From the NCBI GenBank assembly GCA_902783485.1, contig CACZRG010000011.1, positions 1 to 36,573 on the forward strand: a DNA stretch of 36,573 nt, in the 5' to 3' direction. Positions 4,920 to 33,962 of the stretch are shown here, piece by piece. The notes beneath the pieces are model-generated. The model was not told the DNA's origin. It made no database searches and saw only the letters and a program-made list of their open reading frames with translations. The first letter of the stretch is position 1. The number at the start of each line of letters is the position of its first letter. The position numbers were made by a program, and so were the translations under genes. Source of the DNA: an uncultured Elusimicrobium sp. Lineage in GTDB: Bacteria > Elusimicrobiota > Elusimicrobia > Elusimicrobiales > UBA9959.

Positions 4920-7295
4920 ATGATTTACGAAGGTTTTACGGAAAACACGGCTATTTTAGGCAGCTTTAACCTAAACCCCAGGCAGATGGAAGCGGTGCGG
5001 TATTTCGGCGGACCGCTACTGATTCTCGCAGGGGCAGGAACAGGAAAAACAAAAACCCTCACATCAAAAATTGCCCTGCTTATAGCAAGCGGCCTGCCGG
5101 CATCAAATATTCTGGCCATTACATTTACAAACAAGGCCGCACAGGAAATGCAGAACCGCGTGGCCAATCTTGTACCTTATGACGGCAGAATGTGGATACA
5201 TACTTTCCATGCCCTCGGGGCAAGACTGCTGCGGCAGTTCGGCCATCATATCGGCATTTCAAAGGATTTCGTAATCTACGACGATGATGACCAGAAAAAA
5301 CTTCTGCAGATCTGTCTTCAGGAATTAGGCCTTGAAAGCGAAAAAAACAAGATAAATCTTTTCCTGAACATAATTTCCCGTGCGAAAGATGATCTGCTTG
5401 ATGCTGAAAGCTACGCAATACACGCTGCAGCCAAAGAAGAGGGAATGCAGAACCGCGTTGCTGAAATTTACCTTAAATACCAGCAGAAACTTAAAGAGGC
5501 CGGGGCACTGGATTTCGGCGATCTCATAGTACGCACTGCGGAGCTTATAAAAAACTGCCCCGAAGTGCGGCAGATGCTGCAGAACAAATTCAAATACATT
5601 CTTGTCGATGAATACCAGGACACAAACCATGCCCAGTATGTGCTTGTAAAAATGCTCTGTGAGAAGCACCGCAATTTATGCGTTGTCGGCGACCCGGACC
5701 AGAGCGTATACGGCTGGCGCGGAGCCGACATACGCAACATAATGGAATTCGAGAAGGATTTTAAGGACGCGAAAACCGTAATACTGGAACAGAATTACCG
5801 TTCCACCTCGCTGATTCTTAAAGCGGCAAATGCGGTAATAAAGCACAACAAAAACCGCAAGCCAAAGGATTTATGGACCAGTGCAGAGGATGGTGCGCCA
5901 CCAAAAGCCCTGGAATATCCGGATGAAAAGGAAGAGGCAAGAGGCGTTGCCGGCCTGATAAAACGATATACCGGCGGACTTGGCTTCAGCTACAATGACA
6001 TTGCAGTATTCTACCGTACCAACGCACAGAGCCGTAATTTTGAAGAAGCCTTCCGGAACGCACGCATACCGTATAAAATAATCGGCTCCGTCCGGTTCTA
6101 CGACCGGAAAGAGGTAAAGGATGCCCTCGCTTACCTTAAACTTATGGTAATGCCTTCCGACACTGTAAGCCTTTTGAGGGTGATGAACCTGCCGCCACGG
6201 GGCATAGGCAAGACTGCAGTGGAAAAACTACAGGAATACGCGAAATCAGAAGGACTTGGCCTTTATGACGCTTTGCTGCAGGCAGACAAAATAACCGGCC
6301 TGACCCCCAGTGCCAAAAGAGGCATGACGGTATTTACCTCCATTTTTGAAGAAATAAAAACAGATCTTTTTGTATCCTCACCGTCTGATATGTTTGAGCA
6401 GATTATGATGAAAAGCGGATACTGGAAAATGACAGAGGATCTGGCAGAAAAGGACCCTGCGGAGGCACAGAACCGGCTTGGCAACCTGCAGGAACTTGTT
6501 AATGCAATCAAGGATTTCGAGGAAAACTGCCGTCAGAAAGGCGAACAGCCGACACTGCCAAAATATCTGGAAGAGGTTATGCTTGCCAGCAGCATAGACC
6601 AGCTTGATCCGGATGCGGAAGCGGCTACGCTTATGACAGTACATCTGGCGAAAGGACTGGAATTTCCTATTGTCTTTCTGACGGGAATGGAGGAAAACCT
6701 TTTCCCGATAAATTCGCAGAATTCCAGTGACGCAGACATGGAAGAGGAACGCCGCCTTGCCTATGTGGGCATGACGCGGGCACGCAGAATGCTTTACCTT
6801 ACATGGGCAGACGAAAGAATGGTTTTCGGGCAGACTTACAGCAATTTTGAGTCCCGCTTTCTCGGTGAAAGCGGGATTGAATCCGTGCCACAGGGGCACG
6901 GATACGGCGGCGGTTATGCGGCGGGCGGCCACGAAGGCCGCGGTTACGCCGGAGGCAGTTACGGATACAGGGGCGGCAGCCATGGGTACGGAAGCCGTAC
7001 AGGCAGTTCCGCCGCCGGGCGCGCTTACGGGAGCGCGCCATCCGCCGGACGGTCCGGCGGTTTTAACGGCGCAGCCAGTGGCGGAACACGGCCCGCCCCG
7101 CTGCACAATGCAGCGAAGCCGCAGGCAGGCAGCCGCGCCAAGGGGCGCCGGGTCAATCACCCGGCACTGGGCACCGGTACAGTGGTTTCAACGCTGGGCA
7201 GCGGTGAATTTGCCAAGATAACAATAAAATTCGACAGCGGTGTTCAGCAGACATTCATGCTTAAATATGCGCCACTGAAAATGATAGAGGAATGA
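4920..7295 (+). CDS. pcrA: ATP-dependent 3'-5' DNA helicase PcrA/UvrD
   Basis: This 791-residue superfamily 1A helicase acts in nucleotide excision repair and in clearing proteins from DNA. The motifs run in order: Q-motif LNPRQMEAV (18-26), Walker A AGAGTGKT (37-44), motif Ia FTNKAAQEM (69-77), motif II LVDEYQDT (228-235), motif III VVGDPDQSVYGWRGAD (255-270), motif IV EQNYRST (290-296), motif V TLMTVHLAKGLEF and motif VI EERRLAYVGMTRAR. After the 2B/2A core comes a Gly/Ser/Tyr-rich linker at about 660-738. The end is a compact basic, Tudor-like domain from KGRRVNHPALGTGTVV (about 740) to the C-terminus, which in PcrA contacts RNA polymerase. The linker is longer and more glycine-rich than usual. 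The gene is monocistronic, with a strong terminator just after the stop. PcrA and UvrD cannot be separated here. Confidence 0.96.
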   Translation: MIYEGFTENTAILGSFNLNPRQMEAVRYFGGPLLILAGAGTGKTKTLTSKIALLIASGLPASNILAITFTNKAAQEMQNRVANLVPYDGRMWIHTFHALGARLLRQFGHHIGISKDFVIYDDDDQKKLLQICLQELGLESEKNKINLFLNIISRAKDDLLDAESYAIHAAAKEEGMQNRVAEIYLKYQQKLKEAGALDFGDLIVRTAELIKNCPEVRQMLQNKFKYILVDEYQDTNHAQYVLVKMLCEKHRNLCVVGDPDQSVYGWRGADIRNIMEFEKDFKDAKTVILEQNYRSTSLILKAANAVIKHNKNRKPKDLWTSAEDGAPPKALEYPDEKEEARGVAGLIKRYTGGLGFSYNDIAVFYRTNAQSRNFEEAFRNARIPYKIIGSVRFYDRKEVKDALAYLKLMVMPSDTVSLLRVMNLPPRGIGKTAVEKLQEYAKSEGLGLYDALLQADKITGLTPSAKRGMTVFTSIFEEIKTDLFVSSPSDMFEQIMMKSGYWKMTEDLAEKDPAEAQNRLGNLQELVNAIKDFEENCRQKGEQPTLPKYLEEVMLASSIDQLDPDAEAATLMTVHLAKGLEFPIVFLTGMEENLFPINSQNSSDADMEEERRLAYVGMTRARRMLYLTWADERMVFGQTYSNFESRFLGESGIESVPQGHGYGGGYAAGGHEGRGYAGGSYGYRGGSHGYGSRTGSSAAGRAYGSAPSAGRSGGFNGAASGGTRPAPLHNAAKPQAGSRAKGRRVNHPALGTGTVVSTLGSGEFAKITIKFDSGVQQTFMLKYAPLKMIEE

Positions 7296-7332: not shown

Positions 7333-9015
7333 TCAGGGGACCTGCTCTCCGGTTATATTATTATCCACGGAAGAAGCTGGGGCAATCCTGAACATTTTTT
7401 CCGCATGATAATTCATCCAGGGAAATAACGGCCTGAAAAAGGCATGTCCTTTGTTATTTATTTTCCTTACGGATATTTCCACCTCAAAAGGACGGAACAG
7501 CATTCCCCACATATAATACTGCGCTTTCCGGTTGTACATGGAGTAACCCTCCGCCTCGTACAAAAGTGCGCGCAGATTGTCAACGCGGCCTTTCTCAAGA
7601 GCCTCCATAATATCGCCGGAGGCGGCTTTTTTCAGCACGGCTGAAAGCCGGGACACGGCACCTTTGGCCTCATTCCTTACACGGATATATGGGCTTTCAG
7701 GAGCCATTATGCTTAAAAGACTGAAAATCATTTTGTCATACAGACAGGAAAAACCGAGACCGGACGCCTGTTTTCCAAGCTCAAAAACAGTATTATATAC
7801 GGAATATGCCATATAAAGCGCGGAGAAGGCAGCCTGGGCCTCCGAAAGGATACGTGTTATCTCCACTGAATCGTTCAATCCTCCGGCCTCAGCCAGTTTT
7901 TCATCTATTTCCTCAATCAGCTTTCTCATGGCACGGCGGAGCTCGTCATATCCTGCTGCAGTATCATCAAGAGAGCGGGACAGCTCTTCCGTATAAAGAC
8001 TCATAAGTTTTAGCGAAAGCCCTGCAAGAGCCTTGCGCAGATCAGTGCGCAGCTGTTCAAGGTTATCTGCCTCTTTACCGGTTATTACCTTGCGGCTTTT
8101 CAGGGGAGAGGAATAACCCGCGAAATTACCGTATGCCTTCCAGGCATAAGCATAATACTGTTCAGCGCCTTCAGGTCCCTTTCCATTCCCGCGCATGGCG
8201 GAAAGAAGCTGCTCCGCACGGCTGGTCTCATTATCAAGTGCAGCACGGTTTATTTTTATATTGTCATACTGTCCCGAATATTCAGCAGGCCTATAACTGC
8301 CGGAAAGGCCCCGTTTCCGCCTCTTTCCTCCGGCTGAGGCCTCAATGCCCGCGACAGCATCAAAATCCGTTTTAAGCGCACCCTGATAGGGAGAAGTTCC
8401 TTCAAACAGCCTGCGGCTGGCATCGGCAAGATTTTCCGCTGAAAGAGACCTGTCGGACGCGGCAGCTGTAAGAGCCTTTATTCTTTTGAGGAAAGTATCT
8501 GAAAGGGAATATTTATAAACAGTCCTTATTATGCTGCCGTCCCCGTTTACTACATAATCCTTTCCCCAGTAACCTTCACCAAATCCGGGACCCTGTACGC
8601 CCTGTACCGGAGAAGAACCGGATTCCCCGGATCTGCCGGAAAGCATAATGGCGTATGTGGCCGCTTTTTCCGGGTTTCCTGTTATCCAGCGTATGACAAC
8701 CTCGCGCGCTTCGGAATATGTAGGCGCGCCCGAAAGGTTAACCACGGTGCCGGCAACGCCGCTTTCAAGCATTTTATCCGCAATTTTTCCGCGGTATGAA
8801 AGGTCCGTGCGTATTTTACTGATTATTTTGTCTTTTTCCCCGGCATCAATGCCCGTTTCCTTTATTTCCGAAACAGGCACACCGTAAGCCGGCTTTCCCA
8901 CGAATGGTTCTTCCATAGGCTGGGCATAAGCGGAAAATGCACAGCATAAGGAAAAAACCGCCTGCAGCAATACCAGAGACAGGGCAGCAAGCGGTTTTCC
9001 ACAGGGTTTTTTCAT
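7333..9015 (-). CDS. Large secreted protein of unknown function in the pilus operon
   Basis: I do not recognise this 560-residue protein. It starts with a clear signal peptide (MKKP, a hydrophobic core to about residue 28, then AYA-QP as a signal peptidase I site near residue 31), so it should be exported to the periplasm or beyond. No further membrane helix is obvious. The middle is helix-rich and charged (EQLRTDLRKALAGLSLKLMSLY, DELRRAMRKLIEEIDEKLAEAGG), suggesting coiled-coil stretches. It lies six bases after the pilO stop and on the same strand, so it is probably co-transcribed with pilMN and pilO. It does not resemble the secretin PilQ or the lipoprotein PilP that usually complete this operon. 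A pilus-assembly role is inference from position only. Confidence 0.75.
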   Translation of the reverse strand: MKKPCGKPLAALSLVLLQAVFSLCCAFSAYAQPMEEPFVGKPAYGVPVSEIKETGIDAGEKDKIISKIRTDLSYRGKIADKMLESGVAGTVVNLSGAPTYSEAREVVIRWITGNPEKAATYAIMLSGRSGESGSSPVQGVQGPGFGEGYWGKDYVVNGDGSIIRTVYKYSLSDTFLKRIKALTAAASDRSLSAENLADASRRLFEGTSPYQGALKTDFDAVAGIEASAGGKRRKRGLSGSYRPAEYSGQYDNIKINRAALDNETSRAEQLLSAMRGNGKGPEGAEQYYAYAWKAYGNFAGYSSPLKSRKVITGKEADNLEQLRTDLRKALAGLSLKLMSLYTEELSRSLDDTAAGYDELRRAMRKLIEEIDEKLAEAGGLNDSVEITRILSEAQAAFSALYMAYSVYNTVFELGKQASGLGFSCLYDKMIFSLLSIMAPESPYIRVRNEAKGAVSRLSAVLKKAASGDIMEALEKGRVDNLRALLYEAEGYSMYNRKAQYYMWGMLFRPFEVEISVRKINNKGHAFFRPLFPWMNYHAEKMFRIAPASSVDNNITGEQVP

Positions 9016-9021
9016 ATTACA

Positions 9022-9576
9022 TTATTTATTATAACGGTAGTATATGAAAGAAACAGAAAGCTTCATAACCGTGCCTTCCTTCTTTTCCCCGGTCACAGCC
9101 ATATCTGCACTTTTAATAAGACAGCCTTCTTCGGCAAGTGCATTAAGGAACTGTCTTATATCTTCCACTTTTCCCACAGCTGTAAGCGTACACCCGGCTT
9201 TTACAAAATGTCCCTGTTGTTCCGAACCGGAAACCTTCACAGAATCACGCAGGTTTACATTGTACTTCTGTGCGAGATTTCTCAGTGTCCTGGTAAGCGG
9301 AGGAATATTTTTCTCGCGGATAAAATAACTGTCCAGGCTCTTCTTCTGTTTTTTCAGAAGGCTGACTTTTTCTTTCAGTTCTGCGTAAACATTATCTTCC
9401 GAATCCGCCGCCTCTGAAGAAGCGGATGTTTCCACTACGGTTATATCCGGATTCGTGGCACTTTCCAGCGCTGGTCTGAAAAGATAAATATAATAAAGCG
9501 AAAATAACGATACCAGGCCAGCCAGGCTCAGGCAGAATCTTATTTTCTGTCCTTTTGAAAGCAGTGGTCTTATCAT
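9022..9576 (-). CDS. pilO: PilO-like type IV pilus inner-membrane alignment protein
   Basis: This 184-residue bitopic protein has the PilO layout. It has a short cytoplasmic start, one membrane helix (about residues 14-32, FCLSLAGLVSLFSLYYIYLF), a coiled-coil stretch (KEKVSLLKKQKKSLDSYF) and a small ferredoxin-like periplasmic domain (about 85-184, with LTAVGKVEDIRQFLNALAEEG). PilO pairs with PilN and links the cytoplasmic PilM ring to the outer-membrane secretin. Its start overlaps the stop of the upstream pilMN gene by four bases (ATGA), a sign of translational coupling. Sequence conservation is weak, as is normal for PilO, so the call leans on architecture and neighbours. It could also be a GspM-like analogue. 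Confidence 0.75.
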   Translation of the reverse strand: MIRPLLSKGQKIRFCLSLAGLVSLFSLYYIYLFRPALESATNPDITVVETSASSEAADSEDNVYAELKEKVSLLKKQKKSLDSYFIREKNIPPLTRTLRNLAQKYNVNLRDSVKVSGSEQQGHFVKAGCTLTAVGKVEDIRQFLNALAEEGCLIKSADMAVTGEKKEGTVMKLSVSFIYYRYNK

Positions 9577-11210
9577 TTCGCACCGCCTTTATACAGGAAT
9601 TTCACCGGCAGTATATAATCATTGTCCGAGTCCCCGGCTTTTGCTGCGGTTCCGGCAGAAACCTTCTCAAAACCTTCGGCCCTGACAAGAGCATCAGTCC
9701 ATTTCAAAACAATAGCTGGTGTATTGGAGGAAAGCCTGAGTTCCGCGGCAAGTCCTTCATCTTCCGGAGTGACAACAAGCGATGAAACAATAACTCCCGG
9801 AGGAAGCGAGGAAACAAGGAATTTTGTAAGTCCGGAGTAAAGCGCGCGGTTCCTCTTTATCCCCTCCGCCTGCTCCACATAGACAGAAACAGTATCAGCT
9901 TCCTTCTGCAGCATTGCATTCTGCGCCAGATTATCAGCGGTTTCCGCGGCAACAGCTGTCTCCTGCTTTTCCATGGCTTCACTTCTTGCAGCAGCTCCTT
10001 TAATATGCAGAAACAGCACAGCAAGTGCCATCACGGCAAGACATGAATAAAAAAATGTTCTGAAAATAAATCTTATCCGGCGTGCACTGCTGCCATAACC
10101 TGCCGGAAGCATATCAATTCTTGTAAGGTCGGGAAATATGGTAGAGGACAGGGATGCGGCCGAAGCCGGCATAAGAGAATAAAGACCGTCTCCAAAAATC
10201 CTGCTGCTTTTGCCTGACAGATTTTCCGGCGCAGGGAACAGATACACAGGCATTTTAAGTCTCTTCTCAAGGAAGGCTGCCGCGCCTTTATCAGCCGCCG
10301 GACCGCCGGTAAGAAATACAGAGGAAACCTTGACATCGGAAAGATAAACAAATGGGTCTATTTCCTGCAGCAGGGCCTCCATATATTCTTTCTTCGCAGA
10401 AACAGCCGCAGCTTCCTCCCTGCTGAAACGGTTAATCACGGCAAGTTTTTCCTCCTCGGAGACAGGAAGCGGATACCTTTTCTTTATCTCACCGGCTACT
10501 TCCGGCTTTACCCTGAGCAGAGCCCTTATACGTTCATCAGCTGTATCTGATCCGACAGAGACATTCCGGACTGACTCTGCACGTCCAGCCCCGAAAAGGT
10601 ACATGGACGTCTGCTTTCTTCCCATTGTAACGAGAAGATGGTTGTCCTCTATTCTGCCTTTCAGGATACGGCACATTCTCTCAAATGCGAAAACCGCAGG
10701 AATGATCATCACCGGCGCGAGACCGGCCTGCTCCGCAATATTTATTTTCTCCTGAACGGTTTCTTTCTTTGCAGCAGCAAAGACAACACGTGTTCTGGGT
10801 ACTCCGTCATCAGAGATTTCCCCAAGCACATCATAATCTATATACAGATCATCCGTGTTAAAGAACAGCCGGCCGGCCTCTTTTCTGCAGGCAGCCTCAA
10901 AATTCTCTGCCGGCATTCTGTCAATCAGGGAATATGATATTCTTATATCGGTGCCGGACAACAGTATTACAGCATTGCGGCAGCCTATGCCGGATTCCTC
11001 AATATATTCCCGCAGTCTGCCGGAAATTTTTTCAGTTCTCTCATCCTGCGGTTCGCTGCCGGACAGATTAAGCGGAAACGAGCCGCATTCTACAGCTTTT
11101 ATTCTGCCTTTGGATGGTTTTACTCTCGACAGTTTTACGGAATATGCGCCTATATCGACGCCAATTACGCCTCTGGTTTTAAAAATCGCTGATATAATCT
11201 CTGAAATCAT
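9573..11210 (-). CDS. pilM: PilM-PilN fusion protein of the type IV pilus
   Basis: This 545-residue protein joins two normally separate pilus proteins. Residues 1-350 are a PilM-type actin-like ATPase of the FtsA fold, with phosphate loop GVDIGAYSVKL (17-27), a middle DYDVLGE / RTRVVFAAAKKE region and the TGGPAADKG adenosine loop (301-309). Residues about 360-545 follow the PilN plan: the short DLTRIDMLPAGY segment (361-372), which matches the N-terminal INLLP motif with which PilN docks into PilM; a membrane helix (381-403); a coiled coil; and a small periplasmic domain. In other bacteria PilM and PilN are adjacent genes whose products bind each other, so this fusion fits known biology. There is no stop or frameshift at the junction. 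It is translationally coupled to pilO. The ribosome site is weak. Confidence 0.85.
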   Translation of the reverse strand: MISEIISAIFKTRGVIGVDIGAYSVKLSRVKPSKGRIKAVECGSFPLNLSGSEPQDERTEKISGRLREYIEESGIGCRNAVILLSGTDIRISYSLIDRMPAENFEAACRKEAGRLFFNTDDLYIDYDVLGEISDDGVPRTRVVFAAAKKETVQEKINIAEQAGLAPVMIIPAVFAFERMCRILKGRIEDNHLLVTMGRKQTSMYLFGAGRAESVRNVSVGSDTADERIRALLRVKPEVAGEIKKRYPLPVSEEEKLAVINRFSREEAAAVSAKKEYMEALLQEIDPFVYLSDVKVSSVFLTGGPAADKGAAAFLEKRLKMPVYLFPAPENLSGKSSRIFGDGLYSLMPASAASLSSTIFPDLTRIDMLPAGYGSSARRIRFIFRTFFYSCLAVMALAVLFLHIKGAAARSEAMEKQETAVAAETADNLAQNAMLQKEADTVSVYVEQAEGIKRNRALYSGLTKFLVSSLPPGVIVSSLVVTPEDEGLAAELRLSSNTPAIVLKWTDALVRAEGFEKVSAGTAAKAGDSDNDYILPVKFLYKGGAK

Positions 11211-11750: not shown

Positions 11751-12665
11751 TTATTTTCCGGAAAAACGATATATGGTAAACGCTATATCCCTGACAGCAT
11801 AGAAGAAATCATTTACCTGCTCCGGAGTTTCAGCATTTTTTTCATTAAACACATAAAGCCTGTTCCCGTCGCTTTCAACAGTAAGCCCGGTATGTTTCTC
11901 AAAACAGGCCAGCACCTGCGGAGTAAACACTTTATGAACCTTTACATCAGTAGATGTAAGCCGGTACTGCTCTGAAAAGAAGGGAGCCTCTTCAAAATCA
12001 ATATCGGCACCTGTCATCCTGTCAGCTATTCTTGTGGCGAGTGTTTCAGGGCAGAGCCAGAATTCCGGCATAACCAGGTTTCCGAACTTTATAATGGCCG
12101 CGGAAACACCTTTTAATATTTTCCGTCTGAACCCTTTTTCAAGGTATGTGCCGATAACAATAGTGCGGTCAAAAACCCGGAAACTTATATTTTCAGAATC
12201 AAAACCAACCACATTGGAAATGTATGCCTCCGTATTCTTCATGCTGTACTTAACAGCGAGACCGTTTACCCTGTCCATTATCTCCGTTGTATCAATATTG
12301 GATGCTACCGCACTAAGATACGAGGTCGGCATTGTCAGGCTTTCCAGTAATCCGTTATGACGGTCAGGCCAATGTTCATTTTCAGACCAGAATGGGTCAT
12401 TCTCATCAAAAATCTCAGAATAAGAAAGTCCCTCCTTCTCAGCTATTTCCTTAATGGCAGCAATACGTTTTCTGTCTGCGGATTTAATCTTCACCAGATT
12501 ACATATAACCATTGTCAGTATGGTAATCACCAGACCCGCCACCATTACCGGTCCGGGAGTGCTGGTAATTTTATGTTTGAAGCATATACCGTCCAGAACG
12601 AAGAAAAAAGCCAGGCTGGCAAAACCGGCAACTGACCATATTATCATTTTTATAATTCTTCCCAT
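11751..12665 (-). CDS. Membrane-anchored protein of unknown function
   Basis: This 304-residue protein begins with two membrane helices (about residues 7-27 and 37-57, in a short hairpin), followed by a cytoplasmic domain of about 240 residues. That domain has the layout of DUF3137-like proteins: a mid segment ISFRVFDRTIVIGTYLEKGFRRKILKG, a VMPEFWLCPE block and a final SEQYRLTSTDVKVHKVFTPQVLACFEKHTGLTVESDGNRLYVF block. The family suggestion is a resemblance only. It is the last gene of the run parA-parB-secreted protein-asd, 31 bases after asd, and is followed by a terminator. Nothing in it points to catalysis. Confidence 0.65.
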   Translation of the reverse strand: MGRIIKMIIWSVAGFASLAFFFVLDGICFKHKITSTPGPVMVAGLVITILTMVICNLVKIKSADRKRIAAIKEIAEKEGLSYSEIFDENDPFWSENEHWPDRHNGLLESLTMPTSYLSAVASNIDTTEIMDRVNGLAVKYSMKNTEAYISNVVGFDSENISFRVFDRTIVIGTYLEKGFRRKILKGVSAAIIKFGNLVMPEFWLCPETLATRIADRMTGADIDFEEAPFFSEQYRLTSTDVKVHKVFTPQVLACFEKHTGLTVESDGNRLYVFNEKNAETPEQVNDFFYAVRDIAFTIYRFSGK

Positions 12666-32894: not shown

Positions 32895-33962
32895 ATGGAC
32901 ATGGTAACCATTCTTAAAACCGCTGTTCAGCTTGGGTCCAGCGATATTCATATATGTGTCAACAAGCCGCCAATGATGAGACTTAACGGCGACATGGTTC
33001 CTATTATGGCCAACCTTCCGCCCCTTAAGGCGGAGCAGACCAAGGCGCTTATTTATTCAACACTTAATTCGGAACAGCGTCAGAAATTCGAGCAGACATG
33101 GGAACTGGACTCTTCTTTTTCGCTTAACGGCGTATCCAGGTTCCGTCTGAATGTTCTTACCACACGTTATGGCGTGGAGGCTGTAATGAGGGTTATTCCT
33201 TCAGTAATACCTTCACCGGAACAGCTTGAGCTTTCACCAAGTATCGTGAATTTTTCCAGACTTCCCAAAGGTCTTGTTCTTGTCACTGGTCCAACAGGTT
33301 CAGGAAAATCAACTACTCTTGCATCTCTTATAAATCAGATAAACGCCAATATGCGCAAGCATATACTTACCATAGAGGACCCCATAGAATTTACATACGA
33401 GCCCAAGTCAAGTATCATAAGGCAGCGCGAGGTGGGCCAGCACACAAAGAGTTTTTCTGCGGCACTGCGCTCTGCGCTGCGAGAAGACCCAAATGTGATA
33501 CTTGTGGGCGAAATGCGCGATCTTGAGACCATTCAGCTTACCATAACTGCTGCGGAAACCGGACATCTTACATTCGCCACGCTGCATACGCAGGATGCTC
33601 CCTCAACAATAGACCGCATTGTTGACGTTTTCCCTACACATCAGCAGGAGCAGATAAGGGTTCAGCTGGCATCATGTCTGCAGGGTGTTGTTTCCCAGAT
33701 TCTGCTGCCCCGCGCGGACGGCAGAGGCCGCATAGCTGCACGCGAGATAATGATAATGACCCCGGCCATAGCCAATCTTGTGCGCGAGGGAAAGACCCAC
33801 ATGATATACAGTGCTGTTGAAACCGGCGCCAAATTCGGCATGATTCCAATGGACAGGGCTTTGGCCAACCTGGTAATACAGAACAAAATAACCTATGAGA
33901 CAGCTCTCTCAAAAGCGCATGACAAGGAAGTCATCATGAAACTTTGCGGAAAAGCTATGTAA
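32895..33962 (+). CDS. pilT: Type IV pilus retraction ATPase PilT
   Basis: This 355-residue hexameric secretion ATPase depolymerises pili for twitching motility. It has the PAS-like N-terminal domain (SSDIHICVNKPPMMRLNGDM, 15-34), Walker A GPTGSGKST (132-140), an Asp box region LTIEDPIEFTY (158-168), Walker B VILVGEMRDLET (201-212) and the His box AAETGHLTFATLHT (219-232). The C-terminal AIANLVREGKTHMI corresponds to the AIRNLIRE motif required for retraction. A good AAGGAG ribosome site precedes the ATG. It is nine bases upstream of a cyclic-nucleotide-binding-like gene, so they are probably one operon. The pilMN-pilO operon lies at the other side of the window. Confidence 0.96.
   Translation: MDMVTILKTAVQLGSSDIHICVNKPPMMRLNGDMVPIMANLPPLKAEQTKALIYSTLNSEQRQKFEQTWELDSSFSLNGVSRFRLNVLTTRYGVEAVMRVIPSVIPSPEQLELSPSIVNFSRLPKGLVLVTGPTGSGKSTTLASLINQINANMRKHILTIEDPIEFTYEPKSSIIRQREVGQHTKSFSAALRSALREDPNVILVGEMRDLETIQLTITAAETGHLTFATLHTQDAPSTIDRIVDVFPTHQQEQIRVQLASCLQGVVSQILLPRADGRGRIAAREIMIMTPAIANLVREGKTHMIYSAVETGAKFGMIPMDRALANLVIQNKITYETALSKAHDKEVIMKLCGKAM

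Follow-up and report, generated by a model that had tools for sequence, protein, structure and literature searches.

GspL of the type II secretion system is thought to correspond to PilM plus PilN of the type IVa pilus (T4aP), and this relationship is very old. PMC3815138 describes GspL as a natural PilM+PilN fusion. PilM clamps tightly onto PilN according to PMC5285504, and it is presented as a socket for the ATPase in PMC11656802.

The window is the whole stretch of DNA analysed here, 36,573 nucleotides from a genome of the phylum Elusimicrobiota (G000; 1.95 Mb, 256 contigs, 86% complete). In its genus, a single one of the Elusimicrobiales, the pilM and pilN genes of T4aP are shown to have merged into one frame at the ancestral locus. 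The fused layout is of a kind already known from GspL; the initial annotation reported the fusion and omitted GspL, its known natural equivalent, and the window's genome itself carries a separate GspL-like fused gene. No description of a T4aP PilM-PilN fusion was found in the literature searched, which left most subscription journals outside its coverage. The sole congener genome (G001, 89% complete) is a metagenome assembly (Elusimicrobiales bacterium isolate RUI522) and has its fusion locus, L068, on JAILAB010000014.1.

The fused gene and its domains

The locus comprises the following elements, with coordinates in the window:

9573-11210, minus strand: pilM-pilN fusion gene, 545 aa, a single uninterrupted reading frame (PilM_2 match, PilN profile-profile match, congener orthologue at 54%)
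10239-11162, minus strand: PilM (FtsA/actin-like) domain, residues 17-324 (PF11104, E 3.3e-22; 5eou_B, Z 33.4)
10095-10127, minus strand: in-chain docking motif LTRIDMLPAGY, residues 362-372, the former PilN N-terminus (alignment, column counts, pLDDT)
10005-10088, minus strand: hydrophobic stretch, probably a single transmembrane segment, residues ~375-402 (by-eye reading, model helix)
9576-10004, minus strand: PilN-like periplasmic part, residues 403-545 (hhalign)
9022-9576, minus strand: pilO-like gene, 184 aa, with a 4-base overlap with the fusion gene (PF04350, E 0.004, below the cut-off)
7333-9015, minus strand: gene Y, 560 aa, with an N-terminal signal-like stretch and no Pfam or NCBIfam match
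4920-7295, plus strand: uvrD/pcrA-type helicase gene (Pfam), convergent; it serves as a synteny anchor and also stands at the end of the pil locus in relative G022

PF11104 (PilM_2) matches residues 17-324 of the fusion protein and scores 79.3 bits where 27 is the cut-off, TIGR01175 gives 89.1 bits, under its cut-off of 133, and the nearest solved chains by sequence are 3jc8 PilM, 2ych and 5eou. The remainder was compared as a two-sequence profile (residues 360-545 of the window and congener proteins) against one built from 18 separate PilN proteins, giving an hhalign probability of 98.9 (E 1.6e-17) and a full-length alignment, columns 3-182 on 3-183. Homology to T4aP PilN runs over the whole length and includes the counterpart of the N-terminal I-N-L-x-P. 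The Pfam model of PilN (PF05137) found no match in the window protein and 19.6-21.5 bits in the congener, under the cut-off of 22.8; this is weak evidence against PilN, because the model is insensitive in Elusimicrobiota (3 of 6 genomes matched, none over the cut-off) and the separate PilN of relatives likewise fall short.

At the junction, the PilN initiator Met is changed to Leu (CTT) in both fused genes, whereas 30 of the 32 rows in the alignment have Met there, and inspection of the junction DNA found no substitute start codon just 5' of the motif in either gene. The core pentapeptide is IDMLP in the window, with Asn changed to Asp (Asn in 30 of 32 aligned rows), and INLLP in the congener, where the whole motif reads LTRINLLPSGY. 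A chance origin of the motif was ruled out, as the entire PilN continues in register behind it. The fusion protein is PilM joined to full-length PilN without its start codon, and PilM is here no separate cytoplasmic protein, its frame being continuous with PilN. The claim that the window encodes a natural PilM-PilN fusion in one chain, with the PilN docking peptide retained, is borne out by the reading frame, PilM_2, hhalign and the congener.

Distribution of the fusion

The congener fusion is intact, with 546 aa and 54% amino-acid identity to the window protein. The survey was confined to Elusimicrobiota. When the fused protein was searched against 61 genomes, 35 matched, and the uninterrupted 1-545 frame was present only in the window's genome and the congener. 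In one further genome (G014) the match spans residues 3-523 but crosses a TAA and represents two genes, the pilM stop being followed directly by the pilN ATG. In the neighbouring family the fused protein matched none of 24 genomes.

Among the named loci, which are the best 80 of 163 relatives, one is fused, and it is the same congener locus. In the other 79 the PilM-bearing frame ends as PilM; a PilN-like ORF lies directly behind it in 71 (by-eye count) and no such ORF is called there in the remaining 8. The pattern of a PilN start was identified in 78 of the 80 loci, the exceptions being L068 and L143, whose PilN starts with Val.

PilM_2 matches were obtained in 267 of the 340 genomes of the phylum, part of which were inspected singly. 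Among the matches listed in this search there was no further strong PilM_2 match in a frame longer than 453 aa, and 21 genomes that were re-examined, chiefly ones whose best score was low or unclear, contained no strong-PilM fusion besides the congener. Other members of the phylum do have frames of ~475-700 aa with weak PilM_2 matches.

As far as seen, the fusion is confined to one genus. It is also long-lasting, enough for 54% identity and saturated synonymous sites between the copies. The initial annotation had proposed a survey of relatives and held that a sequencing error, or separate genes in all close relatives, would speak against the fusion; neither was encountered, since the congener is fused, and the rest of the phylum has pilM and pilN as separate genes as far as seen.

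Origin and gene order

In relatives pilM and pilN abut or overlap by a few bases, and in at least 12 loci they share one frame, with no more than a few bases and one or two stops separating them. The fusion could be made by one indel or one altered stop, provided that the start of pilN was lost as well. A maximum-likelihood tree was computed from 44 PilM parts, namely both fusions, 40 separate PilM and two GspL-like rows; in it the fusions grouped together (100/100) among T4aP PilM and far from the GspL-like rows, on a long branch whose exact place is unsure.

The gene order in relatives G022 and G003 is pilM-pilN-pilO-pilP-pilQ, two large membrane proteins, a 384-389-aa protein, Y and a NUDIX-like gene, followed in G022 by the UvrD-like helicase on the opposite strand; in the window and the congener it is pilMN-pilO-Y, with the convergent UvrD behind. 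Names of genes other than pil were assigned by eye in this comparison, and at some relatives' loci pilN, pilP and pilQ were masked by longer antisense ORFs in one listing and seen in other searches. This synteny settles the descent from T4aP pilM and pilN. Family models, synteny and the tree all speak against descent from GspL, which was rejected.

The pilO-like gene gave phmmer matches to the PilO ORFs found in the same place in relatives, and it is 56% identical to that of the congener. Y was found in 54 of the 340 genomes of the phylum, 52 of these in the same family; in the relatives examined it lies further downstream, past pilPQ, and at L181 a UvrD-like ORF (named by eye) comes after it. 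Upstream of the fusion, at 11751-12665 (minus strand), is a fast-evolving 304-aa gene without a Pfam match, ~34% identical to the congener, where two tandem relatives of it are present (L068, 4568-5524 and 3709-4449).

Predicted structure and docking

Two AlphaFold2 models, one per fused protein, were built from the same 50 sequences and had mean pLDDT of 91.7 (window) and 91.3 (congener). In the window model the last PilM helix comprises residues 347-356, the motif follows ~5 residues later and a long helix extends over 372-468. Residues 361-370 have a block-mean pLDDT of 94 in the window and 93 in the congener, without helix or strand. The best chain in VIA-align 2 was 5eou_B for both models (Z 33.4 and 32.2, rmsd 2.8 and 2.9, 335 aligned); this alignment runs to model residue 370/371, chain residue 366, and those with PilM-only chains of P. 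aeruginosa end at 357-359.

The motif is predicted to dock in cis in the PilM groove, like the PilN peptide on PilM. The prediction is read from pLDDT and aligned range ends, which are silent on whether the peptide in 5eou chain B is in cis or in trans, and 2ych and 5eou predate AlphaFold training and were possibly seen in it. Prediction of the full chain, proposed beforehand as a check, gave a motif segment ordered much like the 5eou_B PilN peptide; the range ends are weak evidence of docking, because several MreB and DnaK chains without such a peptide also end at model residues 364-375.

The initial annotation had further argued that docking is fixed at 1:1 and that release of PilM from PilN, said to be a proposed regulatory step elsewhere, is impossible here. 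The covalent tether does hold PilM at the membrane, but it does not stop the peptide from leaving the groove. As to release, no clear statement of such a step was found in the literature searched, and PMC5285504 describes tight clamping.

Losses in the surrounding pilus machine

Secretins were present in 37 of 37 genomes searched. In this search the pilQ-type secretin, which stands beside pilMNOP in relatives, was not found in the window's genome or the congener; their secretins are one beside the GspL-like gene and a short one on a contig of Tad-like genes. The GspL-like fusions (516-520 aa; L168:838-2388 on G000:C38 and L169:8890-10452 on G001:C55) head a T2SS-like cluster that is complete in the congener (GspL-like, GspM-like, GspC/B-like, secretin, GspE, GspF and pilins) and partly seen in the window's genome. 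At the pilM locus, pilP and pilQ are absent from their conserved place in both genomes; the absence of pilP rests on gene order, as PF04351 is insensitive in the phylum (1 of 7 genomes matched, none over the cut-off).

A T2SSE/T2SSF search of 9 genomes identified PilB-type (~590-615 aa) and PilC-type (~400-412 aa) frames in all five other members of the family, and found none in the window's genome, the congener or the two neighbouring-family genomes included. The order in relatives G003 and G012 is gltX-GYF-like-pilB-pilT-pilC, followed in G012 by an ogt-like gene; G012 pilB and pilT were masked by antisense ORFs in the gene-order list and seen in other searches, and names were given by eye. 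The window's genome (L203, contig C2) and the congener (L204, contig C46), compared with L205 and L206, have gltX-GYF-like-pilT-radC-like-ogt-like. This order around pilT shows that the absence of pilB and pilC is not an assembly gap. The PilT of this locus is the orthologue of the cluster PilT, with 81-84% identity to relatives and 97% between the two genomes.

It is shown that the pilM locus lacks pilP and pilQ and that the pilT locus lacks pilB and pilC, whereas pilT, the fusion and pilO are intact. PilB, PilC, PilP and PilQ, the set taken as the mark of a working T4aP, are missing in both genomes (86% and 89% complete), and the fusion is not part of a working type IVa pilus. The earlier reasoning from such a pilus does not carry over directly to these genomes, and its argument on pilus regulation has little footing. 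The losses suggest an order of dismantling of the T4aP machine in which motor, platform and outer parts go first and PilT with the PilMNO platform last.

The cluster-type pilT is also present in the neighbouring family, which lacks pilMN, whole in G037 and split in G045. PilT presence alone therefore gives PilMN no job, and since pilT survives there without pilMN, its retention need not depend on PilMN. In G045, a single-contig genome, the gene (L208:712-1781, contig C1) forms two ORFs of 151 and 178 aa and is perhaps a pseudogene. A reverse pattern was seen in G002 (same family, 81% complete), with PilB, PilT and PilC types on contig C150 and no strong PilM match. The window also contains, at 32895-33962 (plus strand), a 355-aa PilT-like ATPase that is 92% identical in the congener and differs in subfamily from the PilT of the pilBTC locus; it comes after LytR_C-like and cytidylyltransferase-like/HD genes and before a cNMP-binding protein gene. 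A further PilT paralogue of the window's genome lies on contig C29.

Selection and the ATP site

Between window and congener the fusion has no stops, a dN of 0.41 and a dS near 2.9, which is saturated. The dN of pilO is 0.38 and that of Y 0.40, with dS of ~2-3 or undefined by saturation, which hampered the YN00 dS of most genes. Elsewhere dN was 0.17 for UvrD, 0.08 for ParA, 0.03 for YchF, 0.27 for ParB, 0.20 for the GspL-like gene and 0.35 for the GspC-like gene. The pilMN-pilO-Y genes are under purifying selection, weaker than that on UvrD, ParA, YchF, ParB and GspL-like and similar to that on GspC-like. Identity between the two genomes is 54-57% in the operon, 71% in the GspL-like gene of the other system, and among neighbours 96% in YchF, 89% in ParA, 76% in UvrD, 73% in Asd, 59% in ParB and 34% in the upstream gene. 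Within the fusion it is 61% in the PilM part, 66% in the linker and motif, 36% in the membrane stretch and 38% in the periplasmic part.

In the ATP site, the phosphate-1 and adenosine motifs are mostly kept in the fusions, with a Gly-to-Ser change in the congener phosphate-1. The phosphate-2 position is Asn or Asp in 28 of 32 rows and His in two more; the window protein has Thr there and that of the congener Ser. This change in the loop suggests that nucleotide use by the fusion protein may be altered. Loss of nucleotide use would parallel GspL.

Possible roles of the fusion

The reading held probable here is that the GspL layout re-evolved independently within a dismantled T4aP machine and is maintained by purifying selection as an inner-membrane anchor. 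In this course of events pilM and pilN merged in frame, giving an actin-like domain, a linker with the motif, one membrane segment and a PilN-like domain, with a PilO/GspM-like partner next. PilMN-PilO would then persist after loss of the pilus as an inner-membrane stator or anchor. Its partner would most likely be either an ATPase of the PilT family or the T2SS-like system of the same genome, since PilM and GspL are sockets of PilB/PilT/GspE-type ATPases and PilB is gone. Fixing PilM to PilN would in that state cost nothing and would guarantee 1:1 assembly.

That an assembly or sequencing artefact removed the stop between two normal genes is vanishingly improbable: the congener is a metagenome assembly and the window's genome, in 256 contigs, is probably one too, but the fusion is intact in an independent assembly at 54% identity and the pilN start codon is gone in both, which rules out an error that deleted a stop. 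It is rather unlikely that the genes are a vestige of a T4aP being lost, with pilMN-pilO the last to go and the fusion a tolerated accident without function; in this reading the lineage is possibly host-associated, the congener's isolate name RUI522 hinting at the rumen. The loss of pilB, pilC, pilP and pilQ, the phosphate-2 change, and the neighbouring family without PilMN and with a split pilT in one genome all agree with such a decay, which would also fit genes evolving faster than most neighbours. Three consecutive genes are, however, intact in two genomes with saturated synonymous sites and dN well below dS, and the docking-motif stretch is better conserved than the remaining part of PilN.

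Two other arrangements concern the partner. A stripped retraction-side device, composed of PilT, PilMN and PilO without extension motor, platform or secretin, in which PilMN is the dedicated membrane socket of the PilT ATPase, is considered unlikely; if it is true, PilMN might not build a pilus of its own but, for example, retract the filament that belongs to the T2SS-like system, or control it. An accessory platform of that T2SS-like system, with PilMN-PilO beside or instead of its GspL-like and GspM-like pair and the same secretin, motor and pilins, is very unlikely: the system is complete in the congener and partly seen in the window's genome, but it has its own GspL-like fusion, conserved at 71%, the pil and gsp loci are unlinked, and relatives that possess a full T4aP machine, separate from it, have such a system as well.

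The re-evolved GspL layout, if this is what the fusion represents, would mean that a GspL-type protein evolved independently a second time and was caught early. Within this one genus the step has been retraced: relatives preserve the separate-gene state, the docking peptide can still be recognised, and in some relatives pilM and pilN are in frame, one or two stops apart.

Comparison with known systems

T4aP PilM and PilN (T. thermophilus 2ych, P. aeruginosa 5eox) share with the window the same domains, the M-N-O order and the PilM fold (Z 27-31). They are separate proteins there, whereas the window has one chain and its genome lacks PilB, PilC, PilP and PilQ. The engineered P. aeruginosa PilM:PilN(1-12) of 5EOU joins the peptide at nearly the same place, with a sequence match through the motif in both fusions; it is a laboratory construct with 12 PilN residues, whereas the natural gene carries the whole PilN. 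The Amuc_1101 family (NF045709, PilM-like pilus complex protein, 608 positions) is a weak match (E 2.4e-4, score 20 against a cut-off of 650).

The 516-aa GspL-like protein of the window's own genome (G000:C38) also has PilM-like, membrane and periplasmic parts in one chain, with KLRMDIS at the junction. It differs from the fusion in belonging to another system (secretin, GspE), in its distant place in the PilM tree and in having no INLLP-type motif.

GspL of E. coli K-12 (b3333) is a single chain with T2SSL at 6-233 and GspL_C at 240-384 and is followed by the gene of its partner GspM, as the window's fusion is by the pilO-like gene. It contains RYDMLHG (residues 222-228) at the domain junction, like RIDMLP in the window, a likeness seen by eye in one sequence. 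Like GspL, the window protein has an actin-like cytoplasmic domain joined to a membrane and a periplasmic domain within a single chain, and it is encoded at a pilMN-pilO-Y locus instead of with gsp genes. In the Pfam search neither T2SSL nor GspL_C matches it at E <= 0.1, and E. coli GspL matches both. The window protein is further unlike GspL in its PilM_2 match, its T4aP locus and a motif that is a nearly unchanged PilN N-terminus. By family models, locus and tree the fusion is T4aP PilM+PilN and arose separately from GspL, whose layout it shares.
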